Of a DNA stretch of 64,000 bases, positions 10,617-62,932 are shown piece by piece. A program made the translations under genes and the position numbers. Source of the stretch: Nymphaea colorata (Eukaryota; Streptophyta; Magnoliopsida; Nymphaeales; Nymphaeaceae); assembly GCF_008831285.2 (NCBI RefSeq), contig NC_045138.2:25949934-26013933 (forward strand). The letters run 5' to 3'. Each line of letters opens with the position of its first letter. Position 1 is the first letter of the stretch. Under the pieces are notes generated by a model, which did no database searches, had not been told where the DNA came from, and saw nothing but the letters and a program-made list of their open reading frames with translations.

Positions 10617-11040
10617 GAACTTAACCGCATTCGCTTCAAAGTAGAAAGTGACTCGACTTAATTGGTCTTACTAACTGGTGAAAGTTTGGTCGTCAGTTTG
10701 ATTTTCGTAGGTGTTCTTTTTTTGTACTATAATACATGGCATCTCCGTTGATAGGTGCTCAACTCTTCACTTAGGTCTCGAACAGTCCGAAACCCCAGAG
10801 TCAGAAATGAATGAGAGATTGAAGTGACGAACTTCACGGCATTCGCTGCAAAGTGGAAAATCACTCAGCTCACCATTTAGCAAAATTGGTCTGACCAACC
10901 AATGAAAGTTTGGTAGTCAGTTTGATTTTCATAGGTATTATTTTTTTGAACCGTAATACATGACATCTTAGTTGATAATCTTAGTTGATAAGTGTTCAAC
11001 TCCCCACTCAGGTCTGAAACAATCCCAAACAAACCCGAGA
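10617..11040. repeat. Diverged direct repeat, period about 212 bp
   Basis: Copy 1 starts at 10617 (GAACTTAACCGCATTCGC) and copy 2 at 10829 (GAACTTCACGGCATTCGC). Shared blocks in the same order include AAATTGGTCT or TAATTGGTCT, GAAAGTTTGGT, GTCAGTTTGATTTTC, ATAATACATG-type and AACTC...ACTTAGGTCT or ACTCAGGTCT. Copy 2 also has a small internal duplication (ATCTTAGTTGATA twice near 10966-10990). The spread of differences indicates an old tandem duplication of noncoding sequence. Confidence 0.8.
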
Positions 11041-12809: not shown

Positions 12810-14410
12810 ATATGAAGTCCCAAGGTACAGGAACTAATGAGTTTCTTTAAGAGGTACCCATTTAAGTCATGCCCACTATCCATTTTAAACCATAACATTC
12901 TTCAAATTTGGCTTTTTCTACTCACTTAAGTCATGCCCAGTTTTATTTCTATGTAACTGAAGTTTAGTACGTCCGACCCACTTGATTTTTTCTTCTCTTA
13001 GCATTGACTTGGGGAAGTATATATCCTATGCATGTTTCTCTCTAGACAGGAATGAACAATAAATACATATAAGATAGAGAAAAAGCATGCAACTACGATC
13101 AAGTACAGCTCTCTCTCTATAGGTTTAGATATAATTTAACAGTGATTTGAAGTCAAGTGGTACTTGTGTTTAATAACAATGTTCACATTTCATGAGCAAA
13201 GCAATGTGGTATAAATTTTTGGGTTTAAATTCGCAGATAGTCCAATTTTTCATGGAGATCTGAATCTTGGTACTTGATAATTGATATATATGTAGTTTGC
13301 ATTCTTTGTGTAAGACGACATCGAGATAATCAGATATAGTAACTATCCAGTAATTAAGTTGATATTGACACCCTCTACAAGTTGGCCTCCTGTTGTAAGG
13401 AACCACAGGGGAGGATAGAAAGAACATCTTCATCCACAGACTGGAACCGATGTGGGCTGTTCCTTGGACTTTGTAGCAGTTACTTGTCAACATAGTTGTT
13501 TCTTTGAACAGGCCAAGATATGTTTGGAGTTGGGAATACAAAACATCAACCTCTTGGATCAAAGGCGGAACTTTGATGTACTCTATTCTTTATCCTTATC
13601 GGATCCTTACCTGCTGATCCAGTATTGGATCTCTAACATTTACATGGACCAAACCCTGTTCAATATTCCAAGTGCAACAATAGGTTATCTCATAGCTCAA
13701 AGTGAGACCCGAAGGCTCCTCCATTCCCCTCCAACTTCTAGTGTTGTTTGGACTGCATCTACAATACTGAGGGGCACTAATAGGTAATAAAAGGAAGCGT
13801 ATGGGTCCGTGTGGGCAGCAGCCCATACACCCCCTGCATGCTTAAGTTTTAAAGATGCATGCATGCTTTAGTGTTATCTTGGTTAATTTGACGGGTTTAC
13901 TTAAACACATCATAGAATTCATGAAAAATAAAACATTCAAACCAACAAGAAAATAAAGCATCATAGATCATTTTTGAAACTGATGGAAAGTTTTAATCAG
14001 TATAAACGGACTTTCGTCGATGAGTACGTACTGCTAGTAAAATGGAAAATTTAGTGCCCGTAAGAACTCGTCATTAAGTGTCTGAGATTTACCAACGTGC
14101 AACTGAGGGCCGTCAACAAAGATCAAGATTTTCCTGTGCGGTTGGTTTTCCGTGAGTAAAAGTTGAAGCATACTGACGTTCTTCATATCCGTCGCTAGAA
14201 ATTTCAACAACACAGTTTATACAGTGAAAGCCGCCAGTGACCGTTTCCTCGTTTTTACTTACACTTTCATCCTGTCAATAAATCTTCCATTTCAATAGAC
14301 TTTAACAACTAAATTGCAGGAAAAGTGCGCAATTCGATCGGCACGGGATGTCGTCACTACGTATATTCATGAAACCCAACTGCCGCGGTCACAATCGCCA
14401 ACAAAACTAG

Positions 14411-14434
14411 AGAGAGAGAGAGAGAAAAAGAGAA
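14411..14434 (+). promoter_or_regulatory. GA-rich tract in the CAF1-like leader
   Basis: An AGAGAGAGAGAGAG run followed by AAAAGAGAAG, about 80-100 bp before the ATG. It is the purine counterpart of the CT leaders in this window. Function is inferred from position. Confidence 0.4.
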
Positions 14435-14509
14435 GTATTCAAGCTAGTCGACGGCTTCTCGCTTCTTGTTTCTTGATCAGTTTCATCCCATCGTTTTCTT
14501 GTTCACGAC

Positions 14510-15499
14510 ATGAAGAAATCCGCGGCGCTCAGGCAAGTCTGGGAGGAAAACTTCTACAGGGAGCAGGAGTTCATCAGGCAGGTGGTCCTTCGCCACAACT
14601 ACGTCACAGTCGCCACTCGAGTCATTCCCCTCCCGACGGCGCCCAGCCCCGCTTCCTCCCCCGCCGGCGCCACCCTTCCCACCTCGGATGAGAACTACGC
14701 CTTCTTCCGCCAGCGCGCCAATGCCATGAGGCTGCTGCAGCTTGGCCTCACCTTCTCAGACGAGGGCGGCAACCTCCCCAAGGACCCCATGACAGGCGAG
14801 AGGTACACCTGGGAGTTCAACGTCAAGGTGGCGAAGTCTATGGACGAGATCGACGCCGTCTTCCGGCAGCACCTGACGGAGAAGGGCATGGACGTCGACT
14901 ACAACATGAAGAACGCCATCCACCCGGACGTGCTGTGCATTGGCTTGTGGTGCATGGATACGCTCATGAAGGAGCGCATCCGTTGGGTCGTCTTCAGCGG
15001 TTGGGCCGCCTTCAGCCCGCTGCTCAACATCATGAGGTCGGTGACCGGAAACCGTAAAAATTTCATCCAAATCACATTCTTGAACTGATCCTTTCCTCAA
15101 CCGATTCTTAATCTACAATTTAGCTTGAATAGGCATAACTTTCTCTATTGACAACATTGGTGGCGATCGATCTCGGATCTGTTCGAAAATGTGATTTGCT
15201 CTCAATCTTTCAGAGCGGAGGAGCAGCTGCCGGAGCGGCGGGAGGCATTCCTGGACTTGGTGAAGTTGTATTTCCCGAAGTTCTACGAAGTGAGGCAGCT
15301 GATGTCAGGCTGCGGCCTGTCGGGAACGCTGGAGGAGACGGCGAACGTGCTGGGCGCGGGCGTCACCGACGGTGAGATGTTCAACCAGGCAGGGCCCGAC
15401 AGCCTGCTCACGCTGCTGGTGTTCCTGGGGCTCAGGAAAAGGCATTTTGGGCGGGGAATACCGGAAGAGCAAGCCAACTTGATCATGTCCATCAGTTAA
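14510..15499 (+). CDS. CAF1-family deadenylase homologue, probably catalytically inactive
   Basis: Exons 14510-15036 and 15214-15499 join through AG|A to give 270 aa, normal CAF1 length. The fold-wide signature is clear: VWEENFYREQEFIRQVV at the N-terminus, LLQLGLTFSDEGGNLPKD, YTWEFNVKV, EKGMDVDYNMKNAI, RIRWVVFSGW, LVKLYFPKFYEVRQLMSGC and NQAGPDSLLTLLVF. Active CAF1 enzymes are DEDD nucleases of the CCR4-NOT complex that shorten mRNA poly(A) tails. Here the DTEFPG motif reads ATRVIP (A35, R37 replacing Asp and Glu), the YDFGYL Asp is Ala (A167), and the His before the last Asp is Asn (N233). Only D238 remains. The reading frame is intact, so this looks like a pseudoenzyme rather than a broken gene. 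Codons are G/C-rich at the third position, unlike the window's other genes. Many plant CAF1 genes are intronless; this one has an intron. Confidence 0.88.
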
Positions 15500-17741
15500 G
15501 GAGTTATTTCCTTGAGAGAACATGCTGAGCTCAATTCTTCTGGTTAATTTCCTTGTCTTCCTTCACGTTGGTGCTTCTGGTTTCGTGTTTTTTCATGGCA
15601 GGGAACTTTTCTGTTCTTTTTCTGCTCGCATGGAGATTTTTCTTGTGTTCATCGCATATCTTTCGCTGCATGGGAATTGAATCTCATGTTCGACTCAAGA
15701 AAAAAGAACAACAAAGTTTTCTCCTCATCGATGGTATTCTATGATTTGTTCTTGCGTTTTATATTTGCAGGTAGAAGGCAAAATTATCAAGCTTCTACTA
15801 ATTCTTTCAAACAATATCATGGTGGAACCATGAATTCGATTAAGCAACATTCAACTAATCAACTAGCGTTAAGATCTGTGTATCCTAATCTGAACCTCAT
15901 CTTATTCGGATTCACTCTAACTTGATTACCAGAATTGACGTGCCGCTCTAGTATCAGCTGCTAATTCTGTATTCAATTAGAAATAGGTGCACCGAAGCAT
16001 GTATACGTGCAACAATAAGCAATTAAAGTAAGAACTTCTCCATGAAACATTATATTTACTTTGAGAAAAGGAATTCCATTAATTAGATTTTTTTTTATCA
16101 TGATTAAAGAAAATGAAGCTAATCATGTTTTTGAATTCCTTAGTGAGTGCAGTATGAAATGAGGGTCTTAATTATGTGATATGATGCATGCAAGTGGTAC
16201 TAGGGCTGCTTGCTCTTGTAAGGGCAATATAAATTCCAAACACCTAATTAAATCTTATTAAAACCTAGAACATCTGACTATAGTGAGCAGGAACTAATAC
16301 GGAAGCTGTTATATGTTCGTGGAGGCCATTCTTGGTGTACCTCCCCAATTGAGAAGGTACATGTAGCGTATATTTCAGTGACATTATTTCATTGGACCTA
16401 AACAATTTGTTGGTAGTGCCAAACGGCCTTTAAAGAAACTGAATTATTTGGTTGTTTGGATTGTAAACTCACTCCATTTGCCAATAATAATAGGAAAAAC
16501 CAAAGTACCTCTTTAACATCGAGGATGTGAAATCCTCTGACCATCCAGTTCTCTATCCAATCATAATTAACTGTATCGAACATTGTCTTAAGAAAGGCCA
16601 AAGAAATCCAAGGATCCCTTAATGTCTTGAATTCTTATAATTCAAGACTACTAATCCATGGGTCCAATTATGTTTCGTTGATTCAGAAAACATCTGCCGA
16701 ATTTCGAAACATTACAAACTATGTCTTTTGTTTGAATCTTATCACTCCAACCATATTTACTACAACTATAGAAATGCTATAAATTGTGGCGGCATTTACA
16801 TGATATATAATCGGGTGTGAGAAAAGTGAGTAAATAAGTTCACCATTTCCACTAAATTATTTATAAAAAACCATGTTTTGGGTGTATCGCTAGAACACAT
16901 AAACCAAAGAGCTCAATACAAAATTTAGTTTTCACGAGACCAAGTTTCAACAAAACTGAGATCTTGATGATGCCGTCCAAACGTTTCATACCTTAGAAAT
17001 TCTTTTCAGACCAACCATGAGTATATGTTTATGAATGGGTAAAAGTAATATTTAAATTTTTATTTTTAAATGATAAGTTAAAAATGGAAAAATATAATTA
17101 AAAAGTAAAATAAACGTAGCACCCTTGAAATAGATACATACAATCACAAACTTTATTTTAAAGTCGATGAATAAAGGAGTGAGAAAAGCGACAGCGCGTT
17201 TCCAGCCGCACATTTTCTGACGCGGGGACGGTGGACCCGCGAGCGCCTTCGATCGAGAGAGAGATGGTGGGTACCCAACGGGATCCCATCTGCCTCCGTG
17301 GTGGTGGGCTGGCTCTGGCTCACCAGCTAATCTGGACCCTGGCAATTCTGCGTTCGATCCCCTGACGAGGACAAAGGATGATAGATGTACGCAGATAATT
17401 GCCACGAAACCAGCTGCGCCTCTAGATGGACGGTCGGTAGGGGCCATGCCTGATATTTCTCTGTCCTCCTTTCTACATCCCTCCCCTCTCCTAGAAGCCT
17501 CTTATGCCTATTACCAGGCGGGGATGGTTTAATTTCTTTCTTTCTTCGTTGGTTTTAGATGAATGGCGTTTCTCTTGGATACTGGGATTGGCATGGTTTT
17601 GATGGCCTTTCGAGAGTAAGAAAGTGAAGAAGGGGAGGAGGAGACAGGGAAGGAAGGTTGGATTGGAGAAGAGACCAGATTGGTTTTGTGTTTCTTGCCT
17701 GTATCCGAAAGAAGATTAATCATCTCGGAGATTGTAAGGAA
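15500..17741. other. Intergenic region and probable Yippee-gene promoter
   Basis: AT-rich with no supported exon up to about 17150. A G+C-richer block at about 17170-17450, followed by pyrimidine-rich sequence to 17540, probably represents the promoter and 5' leader of the Yippee-like gene. No confident TATA box was assigned. Confidence 0.5.
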
Positions 17742-25377: not shown

Positions 25378-28300
25378 TTACATTTTACTGTGCCTAAAAT
25401 TATGTGAAGCGTCGTTGATATGCCCTTGCCCGTTCGATGAACGTTGCAGAAGCTTTTCAGCATGGTGCTCCTTGATGAACTTTGCAAAACGGCTTCCTTT
25501 TTGTCCATCCTGCTTGTCCAATATAGATTCTGGAAGTGAAGGCCTTGCATTCGGTGGAGGTACCAGTGACCAAATCGCCGCAAATTCATTTGATCTTTCC
25601 AGAGTCTGCAATATTGACATATCCTGCATGTCTACTCCCGAAAAGGAAGGAAAACCATCATCGTTAGCAGCAGCACATTCTCAACCACAACAAAGCATGG
25701 GGAAGTAATGACATAGTGTTTCCCTGTAGAAATTTATGATCAATTTGAACAGCTAGATCTAAAGAAACACATGTAACCATTTTTATCTACCTGACGAGAA
25801 CCTAAAGACTGGTTCCAGAGGTGCGAGGGGGATGCTGAAATTCAGGTGAGGGATTATGGTCCCACGGCTATGCCTTGCATTGCTATATCCAAGAGACAAA
25901 CCACTGATTAGACTGTATGTATAATATTCAAACTATCGAAACATGGAAGAAGATGATGACAACACCATTTCCAGAAAGATGGATTAACAATTTTTTCATG
26001 ACGCAACAAGTCACACTTGCATGAGTATACCTGGTCACAAGACCAATTAAATGGCCCCTTGAATTGAAAACACCGCCACCACTTCCACCTGGATGCACTG
26101 CAGCTGTTGTTTCAAGCATTGCAGGCACAGGTTTCCCACCTCCAGTTTCTAATGCCTTATGAGATGTCTTCACAACTCTAGCAATCACACCAGAACTAAC
26201 AGATGGGCAAAGATCTGGAACCATGCCGGAACAGGTATAATCAATCAATGTAACAGGTAAAAACTAAAAAGATAGACCCCCCCTTAGAGGATGAACAGGA
26301 ATACTTAGCAGCTACCAGTAATTGTGAATTCAATGAAGTACTTACTTGACCGAGGTCCAAAAAGGCCATGCCCTATGACAAATGCTTTAGATCCAGGTTC
26401 TGGCCATGCGACCTCCGGAGTCACAGGACAAATACAATTTGGGACTGAATCTATTTGTAACAAGGCAATGTCCAAAGAGCCTCTGGAAACATATACTGTT
26501 CTTGCATCACACCACACTTTTGTGTTGTCATGATCTAGACGAACACGTATCCTTCCATAGCCCTGGTAAGTAGGATTCCTTGCATATGCCATCCCATCAA
26601 CTCCAGAGTCATCCATCAAAACAGGCTCAGGCATCAAATTCTCTCTCCATGTATCGCTTGGCTCTTCTGTTTGAGAAAGAATAGGAGATGTCCACAGTTT
26701 GTTTGCAATTCCACTTACTTGAAGCATTTCTCTAAATCTCCATGGCTCCAAAAGGTGAGCATTTGTGAGTATGAGACCTTTGGAATTTAGTATAATGCCA
26801 GAAGCCCAAGCTCCATCTCCAACAGTCACAAGCACAACTGATGCCATAGCCTTTTGAAGCTGAAATAAAGAAGGATGAATAGTGACAAAAGCATCTTCTG
26901 ATGCTTCTATGGAATCACTAGTGATGTCCACTCGGAGTCCACTACTTGAGACAGTATTGCTAGATGACTCCAACTGGGCACCTGCAAGTTTCTTCTGAAG
27001 TTTTCTGTGTATACCATCAGCTATGGCATCCCATGGCACCACAAGCTGTTCACCAAAACGTTTATCTTATGAATATGAGAGAGAGAGAGAGAGGGGGGGG
27101 AAAGAAAGAGAGAAAGTAGGAAAACTGCAAGCATGACCTGAATTTCCGCCCCTCCAGCAGATTGTTTCATGGGCCTGATTAGAATGCCAACAAGGCATGC
27201 ATTCTTGCCAAACACTGGACCACCTTCCATTCCTAGGCAATCAAATTATTTTTAAAAGTGAAACATGAAGCATTCACATGGCAAAGAAATCTGAATCAGA
27301 AGTCATCAACTCTGTGTAATGGCTCACACCAGGCAGGCATCGTATATCAGCCATCAACAGGGAGCTGCATGAAGCAACTGATGGACAACAATTCGCAACC
27401 ACACCAACAGAGACACTGGTTAAAAGTAGAAAAAGCTAGAAATGAATTGCACATCGAGACCCAACAATTGCTAGTGCTGCAGAGAATCAGTGAAGAAAAA
27501 TGATCCACAAATGATGTTCAATTGATTTCAACTGTTTCCATGAAAGATATTTTAGCATGCAAAGAAAGATGACTAGATTTAAGACGAACGTATGTACCCA
27601 GTCAACAAACAGATCAGCTGCCATGTTCTTTAGATACATGAAGGGAGAGGTAGATGTGGGGATTAATCAGGCTTCCTCTCATCTAAAGCCAAAGTTAGAA
27701 AAGATATCTACTAATACATTTTTGTACGTACTATACTGGAATGAGCACAGCATGGCAAGAAAAGAAGGAAAAGCAAAAAACTAGCAAATCCACTGATGGG
27801 ACGAAAAGGACATAATAAGGAGCAATAGGCTCAAAACGGCAGTTTGAAAAATGCTTAACTAAGAAAAAATTGCAGAAGCAATACCTATTGAAGAAGTGTA
27901 ATGGAGAAAGTATCCCAAATGGCGAGCCCATAGCTAGAAGAACATCACCTCTTTTGTTGCTTAGTGAAATATTGACATGTGGTCTATCCTGAAATATGAA
28001 GTTTGTCAACCTATAAAAGATTCTGGATAGATTCCATATTTCCTCTAAATCCAGAGATCATTGACTGAAGGTGGATTTCATTGAATGAGCGATATCCTCC
28101 AAATTCAGAATCAGTGACCGAAGGACGCACTAGAAAAATTTCTACCTTGGTGTCCATTCCAGCAAGTATGAGAAAAGCAAGCCTGGTAGTAGTCGAGGCC
28201 AGAATACTTGGCTCTTTTAAGCTGTCTGCATCCCTTGTACTCTGAATCTGTTGCAAATAATGTGTGCCTCTTTCTTCATCCTGAAACAAATTAGAGTAAG

Positions 28301-45734: not shown

Positions 45735-48700
45735 ATGATTTCATCAAAAGGAGCTGCATCCGATTTCAAGCTTCTGAATGGTGCAAAAGTCGGAGAAAAC
45801 AGTAAGGCGAACCCAATGAAATCCCCGAAGTTTATAGATGAGGTGGGGTCAGACTTACTGGCAATATTCTTTTGAGGATCATGGCTCGAGGTGGATATGA
45901 CCTGCTCTAATTTAAGTTTCACTTGTCTTGCTTTAGGCTATCGAAGCAGAAAAGCAGCTATGGGCTTCAATCAACTTTAAGGGCCCGCTAGATGAAAAAG
46001 TTGAGGAATCATACTGCAAAGCTCGCGCAGGTTATGAGAATGCTGTTTTTGTGGACAATGAGGCTTCCGAATTTTATGATGATCAGTTATGGTTACTTCA
46101 CTACAGACTTATTGAAGCATACCGCTGCAGAATTAAAGCATGCTGTCAAAGTACAAGTGGTTCTGGCCTCGCAAATCCTCAAAATCCCCGCATTTTGCAG
46201 GAAAACTGTGCTGGAATTTTGACTGGATTTCAGTGCTTCTTAGCGAAGTCCACAAAATTCTATGAGGAAATGATCTCAAAATTGCGAGAGTATTATGGGA
46301 TTCCTGGAGAATGTTCAATTGACAGTTGTGTTTTTTCTGATGGATTGGAGTCAAAAGTTGTACAGAAATTTCAGCTCCTATGCCATCGCTGCTTCATCTA
46401 TCTTGGGGATCTTGGACGTTATAAGGAATTGTATTCAAGTCCTGAAATTCCAAGCTTCAACTTGTCCATTTCTACACGTCACTACTTGAATGCAGCTTCA
46501 GTCTATCCTGCAAGTGGGAACCCTCATAATCAGGCATGATTAACAGTTGTAGCATGCACAATTTGCCCTTATGTTCTGTTTCATGTTGATGATTTGGTTC
46601 TGCTAATTTTTCATTTACAGCTGGCTCTTTTGGCTATGTATGTTGGAGACGAACTCCAGCAAATGTATCATTTTGTCAGAAGCCTCGCTATTGCGGACCC
46701 ATTCCATAAAGCATGGGACAATATCTTTTTACTATTCAATAAGTTGCTGGTAATTTCTTAATATCATTGTGCTATAGGGCTTCTTTTCTTGGGATCATTT
46801 GTTTAATGGTATAAAATATATAATTAGGAAATTGATGCTGCATTGTGGACTCTCTTTTCTTGTTAATGATGCTTGAGAGTTTTGAGGTTAGAGAAGCCTG
46901 TCAGCCTTTCAGTAGACTTCCTTTTTAATGCATGCAAAAGGACATAGTGTAGTTTCTATCAGCTGGAAAGCTGATATCATAGCAGGCTGAGTGCATCTGT
47001 ACATTTGTCGCTAATGGGCATTTATGGCATGCTTACCAATTCCATTTGATGAAGACTAATATTTAGGAAGCGGATAACCTATGCAGTGAATCAAAACTCG
47101 AGGCTGAAACAATTTATGCTTGATCAATCTCTATTTGATTTTTGGTGAGGAAATTATGCCAAGTTCTCTAGCTAAGGAAATCACTAGTTCTTTGTCCTTT
47201 TGCTTCTGATTGCGAGACTTGGAAATTCATATTCTGTAGAACAACATCCAGAATATGTTGGAGTGTTTGAAACCTTTGTATGACATGATCTGAGAAAATG
47301 CTGTTATTTATGCATCTATCTGCCAAATGATTATCCCGCCTTTGTATATTCTGTTACCTGCATGTAACTTCTCTGTCCAATAAATAGTTCTGCGTGCAAT
47401 GGTAAGGTTTATTCTTTGCCTTTTGCTGATATCCGATTATGAGAATACAGGGTTAGAATCATTCACTAATATGTACTTTGTCTCCCAAGGTTACTTCATT
47501 TTCCTTCCAATTAGTTTGCCATTATTATATTATTATAACAATAACAAAAGTAAACTTATGATTTTGTCATTCAAACAGCAGAAAACATCACTTTATTATT
47601 CTGAAAAAGTACAACTTATGTCTCACAGTAACAGCTAAGCACATTCACAAGCACTGCAACTTTTAATTTTTAAACAATGTGGAGTATGAAATACTAATTT
47701 CATTCCAAATATTGGTGGATTCTCAATCAAAGTTTTTTTACAACAAATGATCAGCTTACACCTTTGAGGGAAGCCAGTTTGGAGAAAAATAGTAATGGAT
47801 CAGGTGCTAGTCATTCAGAGAGCATGGTATGTGAGGCTGCTGTGATGGACATGTCCAACGAAGCAAGTTTTATGGAAGCTTTTGGGTATCCCTTCACCAA
47901 GCTAATCAGTATGCTCTGTACAAATAGTAGGTAAATTTCGGAATTTTATTATCATTGAGTTAATCTCCATCACATTCAATTCAGAAGTAATAACTTTTGT
48001 AAACTAATATTTTTATCCTCTCTTTATGTGGTGAACTGTTGAAGTATGCGAGACTCATGGTTGATGCTGTGTAATGTGCAAACATTTCAATTTCTCTTTG
48101 TACACATATATGCTTAGTGCATAGTGCATACATGCATAAATGTAAATCTAGATACATGTATATAATATATAAATCCTTGGAGAAAAGGAAATGGAAACAG
48201 AAGTAGGGCATGTGATAGTATGCTATGATTCTCTGGTAAATTATAACCGGAGTGTAATGTTGAACAGATTTGAGAATTCGGTTCAGTAAATCACTTGCTT
48301 GACCCATGAAATGTTCAAATCTCAATCAGTTCTCTAACTCAATCTTTGTGCACGAAAATGTTGAACCTGCACCTTGAAATTTTACTGCGTGCATGGAATT
48401 CTGGGGGTTGTCATAAGCTGATGTCATCTGATTATTCTGCTGCTTATGGTGCAACAATAGGGAATTTCAGCAAGGATGATGCCAATTCTTGGAAAATGAA
48501 ACTATGAGTATTATGGGGAAAATGGAGGTGAACAACTGATGTGAACCCACTATTACTCCAGCACCAATTGGAGAAGGGAGATGTGAAGTACATCTTTAGG
48601 GTTAGATTGAAAAGAGTGATTCTGAAAAGAAAAATTTTCATCAAGATTAATGCTTTCTATACAGAGTGATTTGAAAATGGCTCTAAGATGCTTGGGATGT

Positions 48701-51179
48701 ATCATTCACGTAGGGAACTTTAGTACTTCCTACGTGCTTTATGAACACAGATGAAACTACAATAGTTGCTTCTTATAAATGTGTTTTTTATTTTTTAAAA
48801 TTACCTTTGAGAAGTGTATTTTTTCCTTGGTATTTATTCGTTGGAATATATATTCTTTTGTTTTAGTTAGTTCTATCGCTGATTGATTAGTTCAAAGTTC
48901 AAACTGATAGTTCTATCGCTGATTGATTAGTTCAAACTGCCTGTTTGCTAAATACCAGGACGGATGGGCTTTCTGACACGTATGCTGCAATGTTAATTGG
49001 TCTGAAAACGGTGTTGTTTGCTGATGATGCAAAGTTGGATGATATGCTGCGCACTTGCCAGCCTGTAGGAATTGAAGAAACGAAGAACAGTGCCTTCCGA
49101 ATTATACAGATAGTTTGCATAGTCATCTTTGCTATATGGTGCCAAAATCTGGAATTTAAATTTGTTAGATGTGAGCGTGACACACAGAAGAATTTCATAC
49201 AGCTGGCCTGGTCTGCTGCTTTTGACATTATGGGGCATGTGATGCATCGATGTGTGAAGTACAGTTCCATTAATGACAGTCCTCTACTGCCTGGTGTACT
49301 GGTTTTTGTAGAATGGTTTGCACTTAGGACAGATCTTGATACAATATTGGATGAAGCTGATGAAAAATGTGGGAATGCAGCAAGATACTTTTTTAGTTGC
49401 TTTGTGGATATGTTGAATAAAGTTTGTGACAAAGGTGATATCAGCCATCAATCTTCTGGTGCATACAAGCTTTCAGATAATGACATCCTCTGGGAAGACA
49501 CTGAATTATGGACATTTTCACCTCTTTTGCCCATTCATGGGTCAAGTACTGGCCTGAACTTCATTCCTGGAAAGGAACTCCGAAGTAAACATGAATACCA
49601 GGTTCGTAATTCTCGGATAGTAGCTTCTGCTGTCAGGCTTGTTAACATCTTCTCTACCTCTAGTTGCAATTGGATCAGCTACAGTGAAATGGAAAAAAGG
49701 TTCTATGCACTTGAAGCAGGTAAAGAGAAGGAGAAAACTGAACTCCCTAGACATGACAATTTACTTGTATCAGCAGTAAAAGAAGACATTGAATTGGCTT
49801 CTGAGTTCACCGGCATGTCCAAAAAAACTAACACCAGTTCTCAGTCTTATATTGAAGAGGATGAAGTCATTATTTTCAACCCTGCTGCAAGAAATAACTC
49901 GAACGTGGATCTTGTCTACTCTTCTGTAGCCAGTGACTTCATTATTTCACACACGGAAGCTCTCAATACAACTTCACCCAAGCCAACACCAGGATCGAAG
50001 CTTAATGATTGGCATTCTATTAATACATTCTCTGCATCACTAGATCATACTGAAGTTTCTCGTGCTTCCCACTCAGATGGAGTGGACTTCTGGAATGTTG
50101 AGGGTAGTAAATCTGCAAGGTTACTGACTGCTGATTCTGTTCTTCATCCTTTATCTGATCTCAGCATTTCATCAACTTCGGCAGAAAGAGATCAGACAGG
50201 ATATGTTCCGCCTCATCCTAAGAACTATGTGCATTGCTCAGGCAGCTTGCCATCTAGAATTGCCTCACCTTCTCTTCGCGGTTGGATAGTCAGCAAGGAG
50301 AAAGGTCCAGCCCTTCCAGAAAGTTTGGCGAGCACTAGTTCACTCAGAGCTGGTTGGAGTCCACTGAAGGACACACATTCAGCTGACACAACAGGCAGAG
50401 CTTTCCCAGAGGGCAGCTCGCTGTTCAGTATGTCACTCCCTTCACCCAACACTCCCAACTATTTGAGTCCACTCGACTTCCAGAATTCAAGTACCAGTGT
50501 CCCTGACTATTTTTCTGCAACGATCAATCCGTATGTGAGTCCATTTCCCTCTGCACCTGTATTGACAGATGAAACCATAATGCATGGCAATAGCCCAGCT
50601 ACTTATCCTAGAGAATATGTCGACTCCAGCTTGAGCTTCCCTCGACATTTTCCTATTTCTTCAGCGCCACAGGATCTGCTCGGAAACCCTGGAACAACAG
50701 GCTTTATTGGTTCACCAGCCTCAAGTGACAAACTCAGAAACTGGTTCCTAGCTCAAGGCCTCCAAGGCACTAGTTCTGGTTATGGAGGTTACCCTCATGC
50801 ACCGGCATTACCACCAATCTATTATTTTCATCAGTACAGAGACATATTCGGTACCCGCTATGGTGATGATTTGTATCATCCACCATATTGTGATTCTACA
50901 TTTAAAGAACCTGATATCTTGAAAAAATCACCTCCTGACAGGTGGATGAATCCTTTAGGTCCTACTTTCCCAAACTTCTATGACAGTTCATATAGAGACC
51001 ACAGCATCCCTCACGGCTACAATGCCCTTGATCAAAAAGGAAAAGAAGTCATGTTTTACGGCTACCAGAGTGCAGCTCCGGTTCGGTACGGCTTGGCTTG
51101 GGATCAAAGGCCAGAGCATCTTTTGCATTCACAGTATCCCACTGATTCAGAATGGTACAGGCAGCAACAGCACGTCTAA
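45735..51179 (+). CDS. SMG7/SMG7-like (EST1-type) nonsense-mediated decay factor
   Basis: Coding exons 45735-45842, 45937-46533, 46621-46749, 47755-47930 and 48959-51179, about 1076 aa. SMG7 proteins bind phosphorylated UPF1 through a 14-3-3-like TPR domain and route faulty mRNA to decay. Visible signatures are AIEAEKQLWASINFKG, QLWLLHYRLIEAYRCRIKAC, YYGIPG, CHRCFIYLGDLGRYKELY, YLNAASVYPASGNPHNQ then LALLAMYVGDELQQMYHFVR, the second EST1 block (LVFVEWFALRTDLD) and a long Ser/Pro/Tyr-rich C-terminal tail. The FLAKSTKFYEEMISKLREYYG context and short N-terminus favour the SMG7-like (SMG7L) branch; SMG7 itself is not excluded. The exon 46533/46621 junction is forced by the conserved GNPHNQ-LA join and uses a GC donor. 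The start is uncertain: the frame stays open upstream to about 45636, and 45735 is the first in-frame ATG of the exon. Confidence 0.88.
46534..46620 (+). other. GC-AG intron of the SMG7-like gene
   Basis: The exon ends CATAATCAG and the intron begins GCATGATT; the acceptor is TTCATTTACAG. No GT donor near 46533 preserves both the frame and the conserved GNPHNQ|LALLAM peptide. The upstream AAGTGGGA GT would delete that motif. GC-AG introns are a small minority in plants. Confidence 0.85.
48871..48948. repeat. Tandem duplication, 40-bp period, before the last SMG7-like exon
   Basis: TTCTATCGCTGATTGATTAG plus TTCAAA occurs at 48871 and 48911, ending about 20 bp before the acceptor of the large last exon (48959). 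The duplicated unit includes plausible branch-point words (CTGAT). Confidence 0.9.
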
Positions 51180-61400: not shown

Positions 61401-62932
61401 GTAAATTTCCTCACATTCTCTAAAAGCTTGTGTGAAACCTTTGAGTGTGTGTGTGTGTGTGTTGTTTATTGGCATATCATACACAATTTTTCTGAAATGT
61501 TGATATTTGTTTCATGTGAAATCATACTTTTTAAACCTCAGGGTGCCAAGAGGTTGTGTGAGGTTGCAATGTCTCATCAATGTGGTGACTCACGCAGTTC
61601 TGTCAGAGCCCTTTTGATCTCATTTTCAATCATTGATTTCTTCAGAAAATGTTAATTAGTTATTACTTCTCGTCGTGATAATATTAGAGTTTGTGGCACA
61701 TCATTGAAGACTAGACGCTGCTAGCGATTACAAGTGCATATAAAGTAAATGTTTAAATAGCTATACTTGGTGCAAATTACCTTGAGGGGATCCCGTTTGC
61801 AAAGATTATACTATAAAGGATTTCACTCGATATAAATAAATATTAGATAAATATGATTGAACTTGTCCTATTTAGTAGAAGACACGTATTGGATTATATT
61901 TTTGACATCCATATATATGCTTTTCCAAGTGGAAAATCACGGTCTCCTTCATCATGCAACAGTTCTCAACCCTGGTCCTTGCATTACAATATCACTCGAT
62001 ACCACAAGGACTCCAGGAGACAACTGTCAAGTGGAAAATCACAGTCATTGGAAAATCACAGTCATGGGAAGTAAGATTGTGAACAAAGTTTTTCACCTAA
62101 TCTGGTTCAATTTACAATTTGTAAGATGTAAACAAAGGTTTTCACCTATTCTAATTCAACCTAAAATATGTTCCTGAGTAGACAAGCACTGAAAAACACA
62201 TTTATCAGGCTCACGTTGGCCGATAAACATCTTTATCCTTTTTTTCCTTGCTTGGGTCTAAAATGGGGCCCAGCCAAAGAACTGCAGACAAACACAATCT
62301 GCCGATGTGAATTATTGGCTTTGGCACAGTATCAATTTTTTAGTATCCTAGTCCTAGCATAAAAATGGCCTCATTTGCTTTCTAGGTAGCATCAATTCAA
62401 TCTGTGGTTTTTGATGGAGTTGATTTTTGTAAACTCTTTGTGCAGGTCAGGAGTTGTCCCTGGGTTGGAGGACCAGGGTGTATGTATATCACTTGCACAT
62501 TGTAGCCTGAGCAATGACATTGTTGCTTCTTTTCGGCCAAAAATATCAGCCACAGATGAAGGGTTGAGTTCACAATCTTCTGCACCACCTTTAACCTCAA
62601 TCTCCGAGCCTGTGAAATCTGGCCGCCATTTTCTAATCAAGAAAAACAATGCTGGTGTGTATTCTGTGGATGGGTGCTTCACTGGGAATGTCAGTGGTCT
62701 CCGTTTGCCCAAGTCGGCCATCATAGGTTTGGCTAATAACAAGTCACTATTCACTTACGGAGATGAAACAAGATGTTGTTTGGGTGTATGGGACTTGCAA
62801 CGCTTGAATTTTGTTTCGTTCCTTAGACCTCACCAGCAACCAATACTTGATGTAAAGTATGCCCGTTCCACTGGCGCTGGCTTACTTGGTTGTATAAGTG
62901 ATAGCATGTTTCAGCTTTATACCTGCTATTGA
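52439..62932 (+). CDS. RFWD3-like RING / coiled-coil / WD40 E3 ubiquitin ligase
   Basis: Thirteen exons: 52439-52839, 53701-53779, 53886-53975, 54054-54098, 54742-54777, 56758-56851, 57801-57868, 58672-58782, 58904-59055, 59130-59169, 60264-60326, 60435-60634, 62446-62932; 621 aa, all GT-AG, phases consistent. Domain order: acidic and Arg-rich disordered N-terminus (1-115), C3HC4 RING (about 118-175; CPIC, then CCLPCGHLYGRSCINRW, then CPQCKTKC), a coiled coil (about 177-217; EELQQEVISLRAENEVLKVE), then a WD40-like region. Key blocks of the latter are NELVLDGARVFDMDA, TGAVKDLHISP, LLASLGKKLSVV, APAWSCAWDLND, YVYAGLQNGLLLIFDLR and ILDVKYARS. RFWD3 in animals ubiquitinates RPA and RAD51 at stalled forks; nuclear genome-maintenance work here is inferred. 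Introns 5 and 12 are 1.9 and 1.8 kb. The RING is split by intron 1 between its first and second ligand pairs. Confidence 0.92.
56872..56953. repeat. 43-bp tandem duplication in RFWD3-like intron 6
   Basis: TTAGAAATTTGAATATTAAA followed by YTATGTTTTCTTTAT occurs at 56872 and 56915, about 20 bp downstream of exon 6. Confidence 0.85.
57928..57950. repeat. (GT)n microsatellite in RFWD3-like intron 7
   Basis: A T-run followed by about 10 GT units. Confidence 0.9.
58451..58527. repeat. 38-bp tandem duplication in RFWD3-like intron 7
   Basis: ATTCATGATACAATTGAATG followed by TGTAGCATTATGTTTCAA is present twice, head to tail, essentially exact. Confidence 0.9.
60635..62445 (+). other. RFWD3-like intron 12 (1.8 kb)
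   Basis: AT-rich, with short ORFs lacking known domains (60979-61224, 61326-61655, 61857-62177). A small GTG-repeat is at 61446 and a locally duplicated TGGAAAATCACAGTCAT word lies near 62034-62065. No exon that would keep the WD40 frame was seen. Confidence 0.6.

Follow-up and report, generated by a model that had tools for sequence, protein, structure and literature searches.

CAF1 is an enzyme that trims the tails of mRNAs. Within a 64,000-nucleotide stretch of the genome of the water lily Nymphaea colorata (contig C1, 25949934-26013933; hereafter, the window), we found a two-exon gene whose product is homologous to CAF1/CNOT7 over nearly its full length, far beyond chance (Table 1). A phmmer search with this protein against the PDB returned nine distinct sequences at E ≤ 0.01, all of which were CAF1, POP2, CNOT7, or CNOT8 (two of them as fusion constructs), with CNOT7 (4gmj; residues 5-257, E = 9.3e-26, 31% identity) as the best match. 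The alignment of the exon 1 product with CNOT7 begins at residue 10. The Pfam CAF1 family (PF04857) scored the same protein at 21.2 bits, i.e., under its gathering cut-off of 24.2.

The gene reads from an ATG at 14510 to a TAA at 15497-15499, within a stop-to-stop frame that starts at 14477. Third codon positions of its coding sequence are rich in G and C (GC3 of 0.86-0.87), next to a GC content of 0.39 in the intron and 0.36-0.41 in the 1-kb flanks. A splice scan yielded eight frame-keeping models (donors 15022-15054, acceptors 15213-15244), none of which touches a catalytic codon or changes a motif; the one given in Table 1 ranked best. The earlier note on this DNA had named a splice model that restores the DTE motif as something that would overturn its reading; a DTEF-like motif (D[TSA]E[FLYMW]) is, however, absent from every frame of 14300-15600, so that no splice model restores motif I. 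A structure predicted for the product that reads through the intron had a mean pLDDT of 35.3 and was set aside.

Two other genes of the window could be assigned to a type. An EST1/SMG7-like gene on the forward strand (45937-51179) has two domain matches, EST1 at 45937-46536 (E = 1.6e-16) and EST1_DNA_bind at 48930-51176 (E = 1.1e-10). It is of an mRNA-decay factor type, and its distance of ~31 kb to the CAF1-like gene is probably a coincidence. On the reverse strand, 25931-27063 contains exons of a trypsin-like peptidase (PF13365), which we take to resemble a DEG-type protease.

Table 1. Features of the CAF1-like gene, in window coordinates; residues of human CNOT7 give the numbering of conserved positions.
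Feature	Position	Strand	Description and basis
CAF1-like gene, spliced frame	14510-15036 + 15214-15499	+	two exons, 270-aa product
Exon 1, CAF1-like, candidate pseudo-deadenylase	14510..15036	+	residues 1-175 plus two bases; open frame, splice model
Intron	15037..15213	+	177 nt, GT-AG, phase 2, AT-rich, two in-frame TGA; splice model
Exon 2, stop codon included	15214..15499	+	splice model
Motif I remnant	14612..14629	+	ATRVIP for DTEFPG (D40A, E42R); alignment to CNOT7
Sites equivalent to E138/M141 (NOT1 contact)	14939..14950	+	I144, W147; alignment, role from PMC3510486
Motif II remnant	14996..15010	+	S163 for H157, A167 for D161; alignment
Motif III	15383..15400	+	N233 for H225; D238 = D230 kept (NQAGPD); alignment

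CAF1 relatives in the genome

We searched this one genome (407.8-Mb assembly, 783 contigs) twice, once with the spliced window protein (22 candidates scored) and once with a paralogue, L023 (24 candidates scored). Both searches gave the same set, namely at least seven canonical CAF1 genes, which fall into a class A (L010, L013, L014, and L015) and a class B (L009, L011, and L012), and at least 13 other full-length, stop-free, and intronless paralogues. Twelve of these 13 are located on contig C11, at 1.705, 1.708, 4.689, and 4.952 Mb and, for the remaining eight, between 5.426 and 5.532 Mb, i.e., within one 105-kb stretch; the last one is on C4, and the window gene sits alone on a contig other than that of the C11 cluster. 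The search with L023 also revealed two decayed N-terminal fragments of the same family, ~50 and ~40 residues long, on C3 (locus L068, C3:5547000-5553500), which indicates that some copies do die.

Trees were built from all 22 rows of the alignment, from 21 rows without CNOT7 and without three catalytic stretches, and from 18 rows in which the class-B copies were left out as well. The window gene grouped with the 13 paralogues at 100/100 support in all three trees, two of which contained no catalytic columns, and the seven canonical paralogues fell outside this clade. As judged from these trees, the 14 genes share a common ancestry. The branch of the window gene measures ~1.2 changes per site (1.17 in the 22-row tree), a length at which long branches may meet, and the window gene, L022, and L037 stand at the base of the clade in no firm order. 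L022 comes closest to the window gene, with 33-36% identity. Within the clade, the intron is confined to the window gene, the 13 other members being single open frames; since the seven canonical copies are intronless too, the simpler reading is that the window gene gained its intron.

The branch is easily overlooked, because a genome search with PF04857 (28 candidates scored) gave 26 matches, none of which was one of the 14 clade genes. In scans of single proteins, 3 of the 10 clade members tested matched this family at E ≤ 0.01. When a profile made from these 10 members was run against the PDB, all chains it matched were of CAF1 type (best E = 2.6e-45), and a search for relatives in viral contigs and prokaryote genomes confirmed none. 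Separately, the PF04857 matches included a locus on C7 (L018, 16695000-16701500) with six matches within ~5 kb, all of them with internal stop codons, which resemble decayed versions of a 5′ exon of PARN type like the one in L016.

CAF1 genes are multi-copy in plants, with 19 genes in poplar, 18 in rice, and 11 in Arabidopsis (PMC8155972). The poplar genes resemble those described here in having zero or one intron in two of their three groups, but differ from them in that the DEDD acids and the His are reported to be conserved in the aligned homologues (poplar group I and others). A dead branch receives no mention in the available text of that study, whose residue-level description excludes groups II and III. 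CAF1 gene counts that are based on homology may mix enzymes with dead copies.

Active-site residues across the clade

For the active site, we aligned the window protein with residues 10-249 of CNOT7 and 20 proteins from the same genome. Five of the six positions considered are changed in the window protein: D40 became A35 (codon at 14612), E42 became R37 (14618), H157 became S163 (14996), D161 became A167 (15008), and H225 became N233 (15383). The sole survivor is D230, present as D238 (15398). Of the DEDD ligands plus His, the window protein hence keeps D230 alone, with four of the five DEDDh residues replaced. These metal-binding acids are lost in the gene as assembled, and a base-calling error is unlikely to lie behind the substitutions, because 13 other genes of the same assembly lost the same two acids. 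The alignment bears out what the earlier note had read from the letters, i.e., ATRVIP for DTEFPG, Ala for the aspartate of the YDF motif, and Asn for the conserved His in a CAF1 homologue that has lost most of its catalytic residues within an intact frame. What the note missed is that the window gene does not stand alone: at least 14 related genes, itself included, share the loss of D40 and E42.

This loss extends across the whole clade. D40 is gone in 14 of 14 members (replaced by Thr in seven, Ser in four, and Ala in three), and so is E42 (Arg in 11; Lys, His, and Asn in one each). At position 157, all 13 paralogues have Lys and the window gene has Ser; D161 survives in 13 of the 14, the window gene with its Ala being the exception. 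All members retain D230, and six of the 14 retain H225. In the seven canonical paralogues, which belong to the same family, are intronless like the 13 dead paralogues, and lie outside the clade, all six positions are intact.

In an active CAF1, one metal ion is bound jointly by E42 and D230 and the other by D40 and D161. A protein that lacks D40 and E42 could probably not hold the two metal ions, and we infer that the window protein would be unable to deadenylate. The Arg that replaces E42, combined with the retained D230, suggests a salt bridge that would take the place of a metal and hold the empty pocket together, and the combination of Lys157 and D161 in the 13 paralogues suggests a second one. 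The window gene has neither Lys157 nor Asp161, and the Arg42-Asp230 pair would remain; this joint absence fits the salt-bridge idea, as a single event. Salt bridges in place of metals in the pocket of this clade are a hypothesis that we base on general chemistry together with these residue patterns.

Dead paralogues of enzymes are common. For CAF1 itself, the nearest precedent that we found is Caf1/Pop2 of Saccharomyces cerevisiae, which also carries natural active-site substitutions (SEDQ for DEDD) and has been proposed to be mainly architectural, but which retains the motif I Glu and the motif II Asp and is reported to be active in vitro (PMC4032980); substitution alone hence does not always abolish activity. 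Moreover, yeast Caf1 is a single gene, whereas the water lily branch numbers at least 14. A literature search, which covered titles and the beginnings of abstracts, mostly outside subscription journals, found no dead branch of CAF1 in any plant, water lily included, which is weak evidence of absence. What appears to be new, relative to the literature searched, is therefore a whole CAF1 branch that lacks the acids of motif I, with a proposed function in non-catalytic binding. CAF1 is a core enzyme of mRNA decay whose catalytic acids are usually treated as fixed, and at least 14 plant relatives without the motif I acids would make up a natural experiment on the CAF1 fold in the absence of catalysis.

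Selection on the window gene and on young paralogues

Pairwise NG86 estimates of omega were 0.58 (interval 0.38-0.81) for the window gene against L022 and 0.59 (0.39-0.82) against L037, with saturated dS. Five older paralogue pairs gave 0.21-0.52, and four canonical pairs gave 0.07-0.30. In a codon maximum likelihood fit with 14 taxa, an omega of 1 was rejected on the branch of the window gene (2dlnL = 41.8; estimate 0.11, with the branch length at its bound). Smaller fits from several starts rejected it in six of six cases (2dlnL of 22.1-35.8), with bound-dependent estimates of 0.17-0.42 and with the window branch at its bound in all free fits. Because this branch is saturated and its length sits at the bound, the value of omega is unreliable and only the rejection of 1 counts; in addition, the codon model is stationary and disregards that the window gene has a base composition unlike that of the other taxa.

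We also simulated neutral drift starting from L022 (2000 runs per setting). At 0.3 changes per site, 4 of 2000 sequences remained free of stops under an intron-like composition and 24 of 2000 under 60% GC; at 0.45 changes per site, these numbers were 0 and 4. The simulated GC3 fell to 0.68-0.72 and 0.63-0.68, respectively, versus 0.87 in the window gene. At a divergence of 0.1 changes per site, the frame stayed open in 182 and 307 of 2000 copies, so that the argument needs the large divergence. At sites invariant among canonical CAF1 and the 13 paralogues, the window gene keeps 17 of 20 residues versus 21 of 34 at comparable variable sites, which is the direction expected under constraint but not significant (p = 0.12). 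The family-majority residue is found in 24 of 33 invariant, 40 of 114 intermediate, and 23 of 105 variable columns (invariant versus intermediate, p = 2.5e-4, a comparison confounded by ancestral states). The window gene thus evolves non-neutrally and maintains an open frame, and taken together, the codon fits and the simulations make its simple decay unlikely. The earlier note had argued against decay from the frame, the splice sites, and the G/C-rich third positions, and had listed a dN/dS near 1 as counterevidence; its argument has gained from these data.

Young paralogues change fast and loosely, which weighs against the reading proposed below. The pair L023/L024 gave an NG86 omega of 2.15 (0.94-8.81) and four other young pairs gave 0.64-0.72, with 1 inside all five intervals. 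In codon models, the tips of L023 and L024 had an omega of 2.1, indistinguishable from 1 (LRT 2.2), L032/L033 had 0.61 (LRT 2.6), and L031/L028 had 0.52 (LRT 5.7), the last being the one test of three to reject 1. The changes between L023 and L024 cluster at CNOT7-equivalent positions 59-73 and 106-119, a 29-codon patch with 18 nonsynonymous changes versus 1.5 expected at an omega of 1, which was chosen after the differences had been viewed. The patch spans the equivalents of C67, L71, and M107, which form the CCR4-LRR face of the human protein (PMC8216464). Two of the four synonymous changes between the genes also fall within it, making gene conversion possible. Comparisons with L029 agree on the patch (p = 3e-3 and 3e-4) and are non-independent. 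An excess over an omega of 1 in the patch was absent from L032/L033, L031/L028, two older pairs that involve L030, and three canonical pairs.

Contact surfaces and possible roles

The earlier note had suggested that the protein might compete for NOT1 or CCR4. In CNOT7, E138 and M141 contact NOT1 (PMC3510486). E138 is absent from all 14 clade members (one has Asp), and M141 is changed in all 14 (to Trp in seven, including the window gene), while both residues are kept in the four class-A canonical copies. Class-B copies, however, with an intact DEDDh set, have Trp at 141 and Glu (L009), Arg (L011), and Arg (L012) at 138, which suggests that the NOT1 contact varies among plant CAF1s that are catalytically intact and apparently working. 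(As an aside, ~18 changes separate L011 from L012 across 305 codons.) Several clade members have a Glu one residue beyond position 138, and a local register shift at the contact is therefore possible. On the side of CCR4, the positions that contact its LRR vary in the canonical plant copies as well. Plant CCR4 uses a MYND-like domain that engages a PXLXP motif in CAF1 (PMC7105381, which cites Chou et al. 2017 for rice CCR4-CAF1); a scan for PXLXP found the motif in none of the 14 clade members and in none of the seven canonical proteins.

In our reading, which we consider probable, selection maintains the window gene, whose CAF1-fold product would lack a working active site. The gene is part of a branch of at least 14 that would have arisen from CAF1 by duplication, and its product most likely serves as a binding or adaptor protein. 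The reading of a pseudo-deadenylase, put forward in the earlier note, would accordingly carry over, supported by the lost catalytic residues, the intact frame, and the rejection of neutral evolution. Because both positions of NOT1 contact are altered as well, such a protein would probably bind partners other than NOT1. The branch would also lend itself to asking whether the loss of catalysis goes along with that of NOT1 binding.

An unlikely alternative is a dominant-negative subunit, which would enter CCR4-NOT via NOT1 or CCR4, displace active CAF1, and slow the decay of some mRNAs. Several data speak for it. Overexpression of the fly double mutant POP2 D53A+E55A, which matches the two positions lost here (D40/E42), slowed the decay of a miRNA reporter, and a human triple mutant, E138A+T142A+E149A, bound NOT1 unaffectedly (PMC3510486). 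The mainly architectural role proposed for yeast Caf1 would fit as well, as would the occurrence of Trp141 and Arg138 in the class-B copies. Against this stands the contrast between the 14 changed clade members and the four unchanged class-A copies, given that human M141R alone, and likewise fly E151A (equivalent to E138), abolishes NOT1 binding (PMC3510486; the mutants there cover M141R and not the M141W of the window gene). The lack of PXLXP is shared with the canonical copies and is uninformative about entry via CCR4. Competition for NOT1, by the window protein or its clade, thus appears less likely than the earlier note had it.

A more far-reaching version of the binding-protein reading strikes us as improbable when taken as a whole. 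It would see the clade as a lineage-specific tandem branch with a metal-free, salt-bridged core (Arg42-Asp230 and Lys157-Asp161), outside of CCR4-NOT, whose members would be binding proteins, plausibly immune decoys or substrate adaptors, with an exposed face that positive selection would diversify in one sub-branch or more; the window gene would then be an old, separate member that has gone furthest, having dropped the second salt bridge and gained an intron.

That the protein instead binds RNA without catalysis, holding 3′ ends uncut in its pocket and shielding poly(A) tails, seems quite improbable to us. The homology is retained across CAF1, and Arg42, joined by Lys157 in the paralogues, would make the pocket more basic; yet H225 and H157, which the human model (PMC8216464) puts among the elements surrounding the RNA end, are both lost in the window gene, and its protein is acidic overall, with a pI of 5.9.

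We give a similarly low chance to an immune decoy or guardee, in which CAF1 copies would act as bait for pathogen proteins that attack deadenylases. Such attacks have a precedent in the TAL effector PthA4, which targets citrus CsCAF1 (PMC6640180), and the tandem cluster, its fast change, and the L023/L024 patch would suit a role of this kind. The patch, however, was picked post hoc and could reflect gene conversion, no excess was seen in the two other young pairs or in two older pairs that include L030, and the window gene is by itself on a separate contig.

That the gene is a pseudogene in decay, yet to acquire its first stop codon, is very improbable: the lost catalytic residues, the long branch, and the C3 fragments as real decay in the family would be in keeping with it, but the open frame, the GC3 of 0.87, the neutral simulations, and the rejection of the neutral model in all seven codon fits kept argue otherwise. 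Least credible, to the point of being nearly negligible, is a protein that would still be a nuclease through another mechanism or other metal ligands, since the conserved D230 and mostly conserved D161 are set against the clade-wide loss of the motif I acids, the loss of the motif II acid in the window gene, and the use of D40A+E42A as an inactivating CAF1 mutation in the human complex (PMC8216464).

Two minor features of the window remain to be listed. A possible RFWD3-like WD40 part lies at 62390-62929 on the forward strand (24.6 bits, under the Pfam cut-off of 47), and a 94-nt direct repeat occurs at 10660-10753 and 10884-10977, with 84% identity between the copies and a start-to-start spacing of 224 nt.
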